Source: a candidate division WOR-3 bacterium (GTDB lineage Bacteria; Hydrothermota; Tepidihabitantia; Tepidihabitantales; JBDRVQ01). Taken from it: 48,388 nucleotides of DNA. Where the stretch lies: assembly GCA_039801905.1 (NCBI GenBank), contig JBDRVQ010000011.1, forward strand, positions 1-48,388, in the 5' to 3' direction. Shown here one piece after another: positions 2,113 to 32,650 of the stretch. The number at the start of each line of letters is the position of its first letter. Positions within the stretch are counted from its first letter, which is position 1. The notes below the pieces were generated by a model that worked only from the letters and a program-made list of their open reading frames with translations, had not been told where the DNA came from and did no database searches. The position numbers and the translations under genes were made by a program.

Positions 2113-2374
2113 CGTCTTTTATTACTTTACCAATTAGACCGGAAATTAGGCGAATGATTAGACTTTCCTTTATTTTCTCAATTAGATTTGGAATTAGACC
2201 TCCATTTACCACTTTTATTATCCCTTCCTTTAGCCCGGAGGTTAGACCCTTAATTAAACCAGGGTTTAAACCGAAGTTTAGGTTTTCTATTAAACCAATA
2301 ATTAGACATTTAATTAAGCCCCCGATACCATCCCCTGTATGCTACACCCTTTTTTATAAAAAGAAATCTCCCCC
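2113..2374 (-). repeat. 12-nt-period array 1 with 61-nt conserved head
   Basis: On the plus strand, seventeen consecutive 12-nt units from 2113 to 2316 all end in TTA at exactly the same phase; the rest of each unit varies. Read on the minus strand the units are GGN-NTA-AT-like and one frame spells imperfect G-L-I-x tetrapeptides. The array starts from a head at 2314-2374 that matches 32381-32441 in the opposite orientation without gaps (53 of 61 bases by my count). The G-L-I-x frame has a TAG stop just before the head core and no credible start, so I do not call a protein. The plus-strand open frame at 2154-2381 (I-R/K-P-x tetrads) is the antisense of the same periodicity. The rest of 1983-2509 shows nothing else I recognise. 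Confidence 0.85.
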
Positions 2375-2509
2375 TTTCTGAACCCCCTTTATATTATTTA
2401 TTTCGCCCCTATAATAATAACGGAAATACCCCCCAAATTCCTGACACCAAAATTTCCTCTCAATTTCGGCAAATTTTTCAGTTTGGTACGATTTTTGCTA
2501 AATAATTAT

Positions 2510-15875: not shown

Positions 15876-16036
15876 ATAAGGGGGAGTTCTGTTTAGGTTC
15901 TTTATTTTCAATAACTTAATCAATTGGGGGCTAAATTTAAGTGAGCCCTACCACCGCCACCCCTACGACTTCCCCTCCCACCCATTAGCCGGGTTTTCGC
16001 TCGTCCTTTAAGGACCAATTCCTTTCGCGGTTAAGG

Positions 16037-16158
16037 GTCTAATCTTCTCACTGATCTCTTTCCCGAAAAAGGGTTTAATCTTCTCACCAATCTCTTCTCC
16101 CGGAAAAGATGTAAGAAAATCTCTAATCTATCGCCTAATCCCAGGACTAATTTTGGGA
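16037..16158 (+). repeat. 12-nt-period array 2 (divergent)
   Basis: Ten units can be laid out in 12-nt steps with CTA, TTA or GTA recurring in phase at 16039, 16075, 16111, 16123, 16135 and 16147. There is a higher-order 36-nt repeat (16037-16072 against 16073-16108). The plus-strand frame in phase reads G-L-I-F-S-L-I-S and later S-L-I-Y-R-L-I-P-G-L-I-L before TGA, the same G/S-L-I-x pattern as arrays 1 and 3, with a TAA stop upstream. The conserved head is not recognisable here. The flanking 15876-16036 is C-rich and unannotated. Confidence 0.55.
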
Positions 16159-16241: not shown

Positions 16242-17693
16242 ATGTGGAAAGGTCCTTTGGAGAAGATTGATAACTGGCGGTGGAAGATTCCCCAGAGTTA
16301 TAAGAAGGAGATGCGGGTGGAAGGTGTAATATATGCCTCCCCTGAGATGCTTGAGAAGATAAAGGAAGATATGGCTCCCGAACAAGTGGCAAATGTTGCC
16401 ACCCTGCCCGGAATCTTAAAATATTCCCTGGCGATGCCGGATATTCATTGGGGTTATGGTTTTGCTATCGGCGGTGTTGCCGGTTTCTCAATAAAAGAAG
16501 GGGTCATCTCTCCCGGCGGTGTCGGCTATGATATAAACTGTGGCGTGCGATTACTCCGCACCAACCTAACAAAGAAAGACATTACGGAAAAAATTTTGGA
16601 AGAACTGGTTAGGGCTATATTCTATAATGTTCCTTCTGGTGTTGGCTCAACCGGTAAAATTCGCATTTCCCAATCAGAAGTGAAAGAGGTCTTATATAAA
16701 GGCGCGAGATGGGCTTATGAGAAAGGTTTTGGCACAGAAAGGGATTTACGCTTCACGGAAGAAGAAGGGCAGATGAAAGGCGCCGACCCTGATAAAATCT
16801 CTAAACGAGCCTTAGAGAGGGGGGCACCACAATTGGGAACCTTGGGAGCAGGGAATCACTTCTTAGAAATCCAGGAGATTGAGGAAATCTATGACCAAGA
16901 GGCAGCGAAGGTCTTTAACTTAGAAAAGGGGATGATAACCGTTATGATTCACACCGGCAGCCGGGGACTTGGTTATCAGATTTGCGATGATAATGTTCGG
17001 GAATTGGGGAAGGCGGTCCAAAAGTATGGGATTTATTTGCCCGACCGGCAATTGGCTTGTGCCCCAATTGAATCGCCAGAAGGCAAGGCATATTTTTCCG
17101 CGATGGTCTGCGCGGCAAATTATGCCTGGGCAAATCGCCAGTGCATCACCCACTGGGTAAGGGAGGCATTCTCCCAGGTCTTTAAGAAAAAGGTTGAAGA
17201 TTTAGGCTTAGAATTAATATATGATGTTGCCCATAATATCGCCAAGTTTGAAAAACACTTGGTTAACGGTAAAGAGATGACAGTCTGTGTCCACCGGAAG
17301 GGAGCGACCCGTGCCTTTCCTCCTGGTCATCCTTCCCTTCCCGAAAAATACCGACCACTTGGCCAACCAGTTATCATTCCGGGTGATATGGGAACAAATT
17401 CCTATCTCTTATTAGGAACCCAAAGGGCGATGGAAGAGACCTTCGGCTCTACCTGTCATGGTGCCGGAAGGGTCTGGTCCCGCACCAAGGCATTAGAAGA
17501 GACAAGGCACAGAAATGTCGCTCAGGAATTAAAATCCAAAGGGATTTTAGTGATGGCAGCATCAAAAGAGGTTTTAAGGGAAGAAGTTCCGGATGCCTAT
17601 AAAGATGTCAATTTGGTGGTTGAGGTCTGCCATAATGCCGGCATCTCTAAGAAAGTCTGCCGGATGCGTCCCTTAGGAGTGGTGAAAGGTTAG
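16242..17693 (+). CDS. rtcB: RNA ligase RtcB
   Basis: A 483-residue member of the RtcB family, which joins RNA 2',3'-cyclic phosphate (or 3'-phosphate) ends to 5'-OH ends using GTP and Mn2+. It serves RNA repair and tRNA splicing. Visible signatures are GGVGYDINCGVRLLRTN (metal-binding Asp and Cys), GAGNHFLEIQ, HTGSRGLGYQI, VHRKGATRAFPPGHP and the guanylylated-His region STCHGAGRVWSR. The length is normal. It is transcribed alone from a leaderless promoter and converges with the cupin gene, with only 3 nt between the stop codons. No archease gene is adjacent. Confidence 0.95.
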   Translation: MWKGPLEKIDNWRWKIPQSYKKEMRVEGVIYASPEMLEKIKEDMAPEQVANVATLPGILKYSLAMPDIHWGYGFAIGGVAGFSIKEGVISPGGVGYDINCGVRLLRTNLTKKDITEKILEELVRAIFYNVPSGVGSTGKIRISQSEVKEVLYKGARWAYEKGFGTERDLRFTEEEGQMKGADPDKISKRALERGAPQLGTLGAGNHFLEIQEIEEIYDQEAAKVFNLEKGMITVMIHTGSRGLGYQICDDNVRELGKAVQKYGIYLPDRQLACAPIESPEGKAYFSAMVCAANYAWANRQCITHWVREAFSQVFKKKVEDLGLELIYDVAHNIAKFEKHLVNGKEMTVCVHRKGATRAFPPGHPSLPEKYRPLGQPVIIPGDMGTNSYLLLGTQRAMEETFGSTCHGAGRVWSRTKALEETRHRNVAQELKSKGILVMAASKEVLREEVPDAYKDVNLVVEVCHNAGISKKVCRMRPLGVVKG

Positions 17694-25019: not shown

Positions 25020-25662
25020 AGAGATTCCCTTTGAGCGTTTCCGGCGCCTCGCAGAAAAGTTAGGCTTAAAAATTGACGAATCCGCCCAAGAGAAATTTAA
25101 GACCTACCATTCCTTACTCTTAGAATGGGGAGGAAAGATAAACCTCTACTCCCAAAATGACCGGCAACGGCTCCTCTCCTACCACTTCTTAGATTCAATT
25201 TTACCCTTAAAACTTCTCCCCGAAGAGAAAGGGCTTCTATTAGCCGATATCGGTTCGGGTGCTGGTTTTCCGGCAATCCCAATTAAAATTATGCGACCGG
25301 ACCTAAAACTCCTCCTCTTTGAAGCGAGGAAGAAAAAAGCGCTATTCCTCTTTTATGTGATAAAAACCATTAACCTTTCCGATACCACCGTGATTGATAG
25401 AAGGGTTGAAGATTGGGAAGGAGAGAAATTTGATATCGCTACGATTCGCCTTTTGGGTGATATCAAAGATACTATCCCCTTAATTGCCCCCCACCTAAAA
25501 GAGAAAGCGCAAATTTTCTTCTATAAAGGTAGCCAGTGGGAAAAAGAGTTAAAAGAGGGAGAAAGGGTTCTCAAAAAGTTTAACCTCTCTCTTTTAGAAA
25601 CTCATACCTTCCACCTCTCCCACCTAAAACTAACCCGCCGGATTCTAATCTTGCAAAAGTAA
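25012..25662 (+). CDS. rsmG: 16S rRNA m7G527 methyltransferase
   Basis: A 216-residue RsmG (GidB) that methylates N7 of G527 in 16S rRNA. Visible family motifs are LLLEWGGKINLYSQNDRQRLLSYHFLDSI-type N-terminal helices, the SAM site LLADIGSGAGFPAIPIKI and the catalytic-domain VEDWEG region. It starts at TTG (25012) inside the end of the upstream gene; no ATG fits the family N-terminus. The last 49 nt before the end are duplicated at 32246-32294, 6.6 kb away. Confidence 0.92.
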   Translation: MAKEIPFERFRRLAEKLGLKIDESAQEKFKTYHSLLLEWGGKINLYSQNDRQRLLSYHFLDSILPLKLLPEEKGLLLADIGSGAGFPAIPIKIMRPDLKLLLFEARKKKALFLFYVIKTINLSDTTVIDRRVEDWEGEKFDIATIRLLGDIKDTIPLIAPHLKEKAQIFFYKGSQWEKELKEGERVLKKFNLSLLETHTFHLSHLKLTRRILILQK

Positions 25663-32164: not shown

Positions 32165-32245
32165 TAGGGTTCTTTCTCCATTTTAATTAAATTTGATTTT
32201 GGAGTAGATTTTCGGTAGAAGATATAATATCTCCTTTCAGGGGAT

Positions 32246-32312
32246 TCATACCTTCCACCTCTCCCACCTGAAACTGACCCGCCGGATTCTAATCATCCAG
32301 AAAAACGGTTGA
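32246..32312 (+). pseudogene. Copy of the rsmG 3' end
   Basis: Positions 32246-32294 match 25602-25650 at 47 of 49 bases. Both differences are Leu codon third positions (CTA to CTG), so the peptide THTFHLSHLKLTRR is unchanged. The frame continues to a TGA at 32310-32312. Upstream sequence is unrelated. It is a gene fragment left by duplication or transfer. Confidence 0.8.
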
Positions 32313-32336
32313 CATTTTCTAAAGTTACCTTATAAT
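32309..32336 (+). promoter_or_regulatory. Consensus promoter reading into array 3
   Basis: TTGACA, 16 nt, TATAAT: a full consensus match with the spacing used throughout this window. The predicted start is near 32343, about 40 nt before the conserved head of the array. No protein gene lies downstream on this strand before nrdD, which is on the opposite strand. Confidence 0.75.
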
Positions 32337-32380
32337 AAAGATAATAAAATAAACTAAATAAATTTACTCGCCCTTCAAAA

Positions 32381-32650
32381 GGGAGGGGTTTATTTTTATA
32401 AAAAGGGGTATACCATACAGGGGATGGTATCGGAGGCTTAAAAAGGGGTTTAATAAGAGGCTTAATCAGAAATCTAATTAGGATGATAATAGAAGATATA
32501 CAAGAGGGGATAATAAAGATGGTAATTAATGGGATAATTGGTGGTCTAATCTGAGAGGTAATAATAGGGATAATAGAAGGGATAAAAGAGGGTATAATTG
32601 AAAGGATAATTTGGGAGATAATTGAAGGTCTAAATGACCACTTAATTTCA
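32381..32650 (+). repeat. 12-nt-period array 3 with conserved head and own promoter
   Basis: The 61-nt head (32381-32441) begins with GGGAGGGG and matches the head of array 1 without gaps. From 32438 to 32644, eighteen consecutive units carry NTA at exact 12-nt steps (for example 32438, 32450, 32462, 32474), mostly within G-G-N-N-T-A-A-T. The in-phase frame spells G-L-I-R, G-I-I-E, E-I-I-E tetrads but is closed by a TAA before the head and a TGA near 32551, and it has no normal start. The array ends about 18 nt past the nrdD stop. It could be a transcribed RNA, a decayed gene or a mobile element remnant. Confidence 0.85.

Follow-up and report, generated by a model that had tools for sequence, protein, structure and literature searches.

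Dispersed 12-bp-phased arrays and homologues of Adnaviria coat proteins in a candidate division WOR-3 bacterium

Organisation of the array locus and its copies

The window analysed here is a stretch of 48,388 nucleotides from a candidate division WOR-3 bacterium (contig JBDRVQ010000011.1; C11 in our genome scan). Its plus strand carries an array of short units, referred to as array 3, together with several upstream parts. A sigma-70-type promoter (TTGACA-16-TATAAT; 32309..32336), which agrees with the consensus at 12 of 12 positions, is followed by a leader of the AAACTAAATAA type (32343..32381) that recurs in promoter-bearing copies described below, and by a conserved head (32382..32434) with a mean pairwise identity of 88% across copies. 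The array itself (32435..32650) comprises 18 units of 12 bp with the consensus RRTYTAATNNRR, and 17 of the 18 units contain an in-phase TAA. The initial annotation had reported a full-consensus promoter aimed at the array, a GGGAGGGG run, a 61-nt head and the 18-unit array, all of which lie where it had placed them, and had correctly noted that the repeat frame is without a usable start codon. A second copy is located on the minus strand of the window and consists of a left module (GTGTCAGGAATTTGGGGGGTATTTCCG; 2421..2449), a head (2321..2373) and a 12-bp array of 17 units (2117..2320); the genes orfA and orfB, which are found in complete elements (see below), are missing from it.

Two further repeats were observed in the window. 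A 78-nt direct repeat (81%) connects positions 32225-32302 with 25581-25658. The copy at 25581 is the 3' end of an rsmG-like gene, and a tail-like fragment thus lies directly before the promoter of array 3. At 16022-16108, just upstream of an ORF at 16242, there is a 36-bp tandem duplication of the AAGGGTCTAATCTTCTCACC type, the period of which is a multiple of 12.

The whole genome (1,695,716 bp in 58 contigs) was scanned with position weight matrices for the head and the array. This revealed 56 heads and 64 arrays, corresponding to approximately 66 dispersed elements. When only ORFs of 150 aa or more are counted as genes, 55 of the 56 head copies are intergenic. A search with the head DNA in 100 relatives returned a single weak match that resembles a chance hit. 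Of the 56 head copies, 10 have the 12/12 promoter at a distance of 91-96 nt before the anchor, and it was found in none of 217 control windows; one or two further copies have a near-perfect version. That ten copies have this promoter in common indicates that it is real and shared, and makes a transcript from array 3 plausible. The proposal that array 3 is a transcription unit of its own is partly supported by a promoter conserved here and in at least nine paralogues, but it does not extend to the approximately 45 of 56 head copies from which the promoter is missing.

Most of the remaining copies have a different upstream part, namely the left module GTGTCAGAAATTGGGGGGTATTTCCGTATTTATTATAGAGGG followed by remnants of reading frames, and the promoter-type copies are devoid of this module. 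Complete elements, with a total length of about 1.25 kb, are present on contigs C1, C40 and C48. They contain, in this order, the left module, which is a probable promoter, orfA, orfB, the head and 17-18 units of exactly 12 bp. The left module is fused straight to the array in two deletion copies, while a solitary orfA on contig C4 (51460-51831, minus strand; L292) has retained the left module and has no array. The neighbours of this solitary gene are an M15-peptidase-like ORF and an HTH-like ORF. Several arrays (contigs C3, C10, C16, C26, C27 and C31) continue into a shared module with a hairpin (GGCGGGTGC...GCACCCGCC) and AAAGGAGA. The same module also holds a small, very basic ORF (MSIFLKISKKSRVKRNRREQKRRRRLLQK...), which may represent a third gene in an extended form of the element.

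OrfA and OrfB resemble coat proteins of archaeal viruses

The complete elements encode OrfA (122-124 aa) and OrfB (111-121 aa) in adjacent genes, which on contig C1 span positions 86347-87053. According to a profile comparison of their sequences, the two proteins are paralogues (hhalign, E=1.4e-4, probability 53%). Comparison of the C1 and C48 copies gave a dN of 0.11 and a dS of 0.52 for OrfA and values of 0.18 and 0.62 for OrfB. The resulting dN/dS ratios of about 0.2-0.3 indicate that both genes are protein-coding and under purifying selection. Relatives of OrfA were detected in all 27 genomes of the same order, with two to at least 17 copies each, and almost nowhere else among the 246 genomes searched; OrfB-type matches occur in 23 of the 27.

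The best four matches of a PDB search with a profile of 31 family members were all coat proteins of Adnaviria, namely 3j9x of SIRV2 (1.7e-5), 6wq0 of SSRV1 (3.3e-5) and two entries of AFV1, 5w7g_A and 3fbz (7e-4 each). Of the 31 members, 21 match the Pfam family PF12193 (Sulf_coat_C; Sulfolobus virus coat protein C terminal), with a best value of 1e-6. Among 147 genomes of the phylum, 11 passed the curated cut-off of this Pfam family, including genomes of the same order with family members and one that owes this to a contaminating rudivirus contig; none of 14 controls did. Direct alignment of the family with seven rudivirus-type coat proteins using hhalign yielded 97.9% and an E-value of 3.8e-13 over 115 aligned columns. 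In the reverse search, in which the viral profile was compared with 4490 ORFs from this genome and the relatives' loci, family members occupied ranks 1-8, with the orfA product of contig C4 nearest to the viral profile (E=2.6e-6). At the level of sequence profiles, we therefore regard the homology of the OrfA/OrfB family to the major coat proteins of Adnaviria as established. The viral proteins are built from a helical arm at the N terminus and a four-helix bundle at the C terminus.

The contaminating contig (L352; G146:C173) was rejected as a bacterial locus, since its strong PF12193 match belongs to a rudivirus contig in a bacterial bin. The coat protein encoded there is 36% identical to that of SMRV1 and adjoins a glycosyltransferase-like ORF; its presence in a bin of the same phylum is probably due to contamination.

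In the relatives, the coat-like genes occur singly or in pairs amid ordinary host genes, and other viral genes were not found nearby. The neighbours include genes which we take to code for, e.g., nucleoside diphosphate kinase and aldehyde dehydrogenase. Viral genes beside the coat gene, as expected of a virus or provirus, were likewise not found in the full element of two genes, and neither IMG/VR nor a phage collection searched with tblastn contained relatives of OrfA or OrfB.

The 12-bp register is conserved in otherwise divergent arrays

In an ungapped alignment of 41 array copies, T-A-A recurs every 12 nt over 17-18 units with a conservation of 94-97%. The other positions vary widely; only a bias towards purines and a T directly following the TAA (71%) stand out among them. 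Across 56 copies, an in-phase TAA is present in 841 of 952 units and two of its three letters in 74 more. Counted by phase, TAA occurs 822 times in phase and at most 98 times in any other. As 521 different units were found among 697, near-identical repeats are absent and only TAA recurs, so that these loci do not qualify as CRISPR arrays. The description of array 3 as a repeat is consequently accurate for its 18 steps of 12 nt and inaccurate for the units themselves, which have only TAA and a purine pair in common.

The remaining unit positions are approximately 43% identical between copies and thus near saturation. Even pairs of arrays that are less than 40% identical outside the TAA show 94% identity at the TAA. 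In 53 of the 56 copies, phase, unit number and TAA are all preserved. The number of units hardly departs from 17-18, and indels that break the register are very rare. Together with the conservation of TAA, this nearly fixed length and the rarity of such indels show strong selection on the 12-bp register.

The pattern of conservation does not resemble that of a protein-coding tandem repeat, in which third codon positions should be the most variable and stops should be avoided. Whichever usable frame is considered, some of the invariant letters fall on third codon positions, and the array was therefore rejected as a protein in any of the six frames. Stops in the frame that would encode the LI dipeptide are not depleted (44 compared to 52 in shuffled columns) and interrupt this plus-strand frame in 28 of the 41 copies. 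The copies have no conserved start codon, and TAA/TTA itself creates stops in some frames. Translation from a rare start, which the initial annotation had offered as one of two options, is rejected because of these invariant third positions and undepleted stops.

The period matches the footprint of the viral coat proteins

In AFV1, each coat heterodimer is associated with 12 bp of DNA, as in SIRV (PMC5517147), and in PFV2 two paralogous coat proteins form a heterodimer that, together with 12 bp of A-form DNA, makes up the asymmetric unit (PMC7189273). By analogy, the array period matches the footprint expected for the protein family that the full element encodes, and the array DNA may be wrapped in a similar manner. 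A shared footprint predicts that 12-bp arrays should also be present near family genes elsewhere, which was tested in other genomes. A lag-12 array was detected at 20 of 57 family loci, nearly all of them in the same order, compared to 0-4 loci for other lags and a background of 2 in 300 array-free pieces, which were taken from this genome rather than from that of each relative. At the other 37 loci, a detectable array is absent within approximately 1.5 kb. The 10-14-kb surroundings of seven family loci contained 12-bp arrays in four cases, never more than about 2.5 kb away from the coat-like gene. Arrays of the relatives lie either upstream or downstream of this gene, and the units of different genomes have completely different sequences (TCANTCGGCAN, GTGANCC..., GGTAGACGGTCT, GACTCGGGGGCA and others). 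The same period hence recurs beside family genes with different units, which fits a structural repeat and not the common descent of one sequence.

The lag test revealed no such 12-bp array in eight rudivirus genomes, which indicates that the viral coat proteins do not need one. Apparent 12-bp arrays at rudivirus termini disappeared with the lag statistic; 8-bp repeats in SRV and SBRV1 had produced this artefact. Sulfolobales Mexican rudivirus 1 (SMRV1; 25-205 and 445-620) has a terminal repeat in which CCGAAAGT and TTTCAGT recur at spacings divisible by 12 bp; this isolated, weak case is not significant by the lag test. Among the matches listed for the exact pattern of TAA every 12 nt in the genome collection, most were simple or coding repeats. 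Two candidates were discarded: the repeat of a WOR-3 match (L109) is coding and no coat-like gene accompanies it, and the array at L319 is GC-rich with a period of 24 bp and lacks a convincing gene.

Proposed function and alternative explanations

We consider it fairly probable that head and array form a cis-acting loading track, a stretch of DNA on which coat-like proteins would assemble into a nucleoprotein filament, with the ability to bind DNA inferred from the homology and the matching period. The head would mark the site or nucleate the filament, and each 12-bp unit would hold one coat-like dimer, the TAA setting the register. Approximately 18 dimers over 216 bp would thus build a short nucleoprotein filament, possibly on A-form DNA. 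Full elements would supply OrfA and OrfB, and copies without these genes, such as array 3, would be served in trans. The filament could be used for packaging or spread of the element, for chromosome structure or for control of the element's own expression. Points against the loading track are the 37 loci of relatives at which no array was detected, the lack of such arrays in the tested rudivirus genomes and the conserved TAA itself, as the latter implies a sequence preference, unlike the viral coat proteins, which package whole genomes.

In an unlikely alternative, the array would be one terminus of a transposable element, and its period would derive from a transposition protein, either OrfA/OrfB or that of another element, which binds it repeatedly. 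It would account for copies that are dispersed and nearly all intergenic and for internal-deletion derivatives that retain left module and array. However, OrfA and OrfB resemble coat proteins and not transposases, the ends are ragged, neither terminal inverted repeats nor target duplications were recognised, and the left module is missing from the promoter-type copies. MITEs and other non-autonomous dispersed repeats are comparable in being multicopy, intergenic deletion derivatives of a coding element, and differ in that no terminal inverted repeats or transposase were recognised here and the long phased array is strongly constrained.

Slightly less probable, in our estimation, is a small RNA gene: the transcript of head and array would display 18 UAA motifs at intervals of 12 nt for recognition by an RNA-binding protein, which might be OrfA/OrfB. 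The fixed distance of the promoter in ten copies speaks for such a gene, and an orfA-orfB message from full copies would have head and array at its 3' end. The majority of head copies have no promoter, however, and an alifold analysis of 29 non-redundant copies revealed no consensus structure for the array and only a weak fold for the head. A non-coding RNA, the other option of the initial annotation, is for these reasons not supported as the general function. In addition, the arrays of relatives are also found upstream of the gene, a position for which an RNA cotranscribed with it would not account. At gathering score, Rfam detected six tRNAs in the window and nothing else. A Rho-dependent terminator on the minus strand, suggested by the YC spacing, was rejected as it leaves the invariant TTA unexplained.

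It is very improbable that the arrays are a functionless minisatellite spread by slippage and gene conversion: tandem 12-bp units in many copies would be expected of one, but phase, unit number and TAA persist down to unit identities of about 43%, and the same period occurs with other sequences beside homologous genes in relatives. A tetrapeptide-repeat protein with an unusual start (xLIx on the plus strand or PxIK on the minus strand) is the least credible explanation in view of the conserved third positions, the interrupted LI frame and the lack of a conserved start, even if one antisense frame of the 41 arrays contains 23 stops compared to 42 expected from column shuffles (approximately 4 standard deviations) and some copies are open throughout.

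The loading track can be compared with several known systems. Members of Adnaviria (Rudiviridae, Lipothrixviridae, Tristromaviridae) have homologous coat proteins of approximately 120-135 aa, which in AFV1 and PFV2 also form a paralogous pair, and their 12 bp per coat dimer equal the array period. In contrast, the elements described here reside in bacterial chromosomes between host genes with no viral genes nearby and possess dedicated 12-bp-phased arrays, which the tested rudivirus genomes do not. The protein p6 of phage phi29 is a multimer that bends DNA every 12 bp into a right-handed superhelix and relies on bendability. It has the 12-bp phasing in common with our arrays, whereas the protein is unrelated and a fixed triplet is found here. 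The TubR-tubC centromeres of plasmids consist of few, nearly identical 12-bp iterons on which a nucleoprotein filament is formed, with a GTPase as partner. They are similar in their arrays of units of about 12 bp, whereas our elements have degenerate units and approximately 66 copies. Indels of 12 bp have been reported from rudi- and lipothrixvirus genomes (PMC4390879), and the arrays may be related to them.

Conclusions

We agree with the initial annotation that this is an undescribed system. The coat-protein family was previously thought to be confined to archaeal viruses, and no description of bacterial members was found in a search of open-access papers. With somewhat less confidence than even, we propose that a bacterial order possesses its own branch of the Adnaviria coat proteins outside of viruses, which would build A-form DNA filaments at dedicated 12-bp-phased loci, either as minimal selfish elements that both coat and mobilise their DNA or as host chromatin. 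A multicopy bacterial coat family together with DNA that has the 12-bp footprint of the coat bears on the origin of Adnaviria. If the proposal is true, the hallmark protein of Adnaviria has a bacterial branch or origin, and these elements would offer a sequence-programmed system to study A-form DNA filaments.
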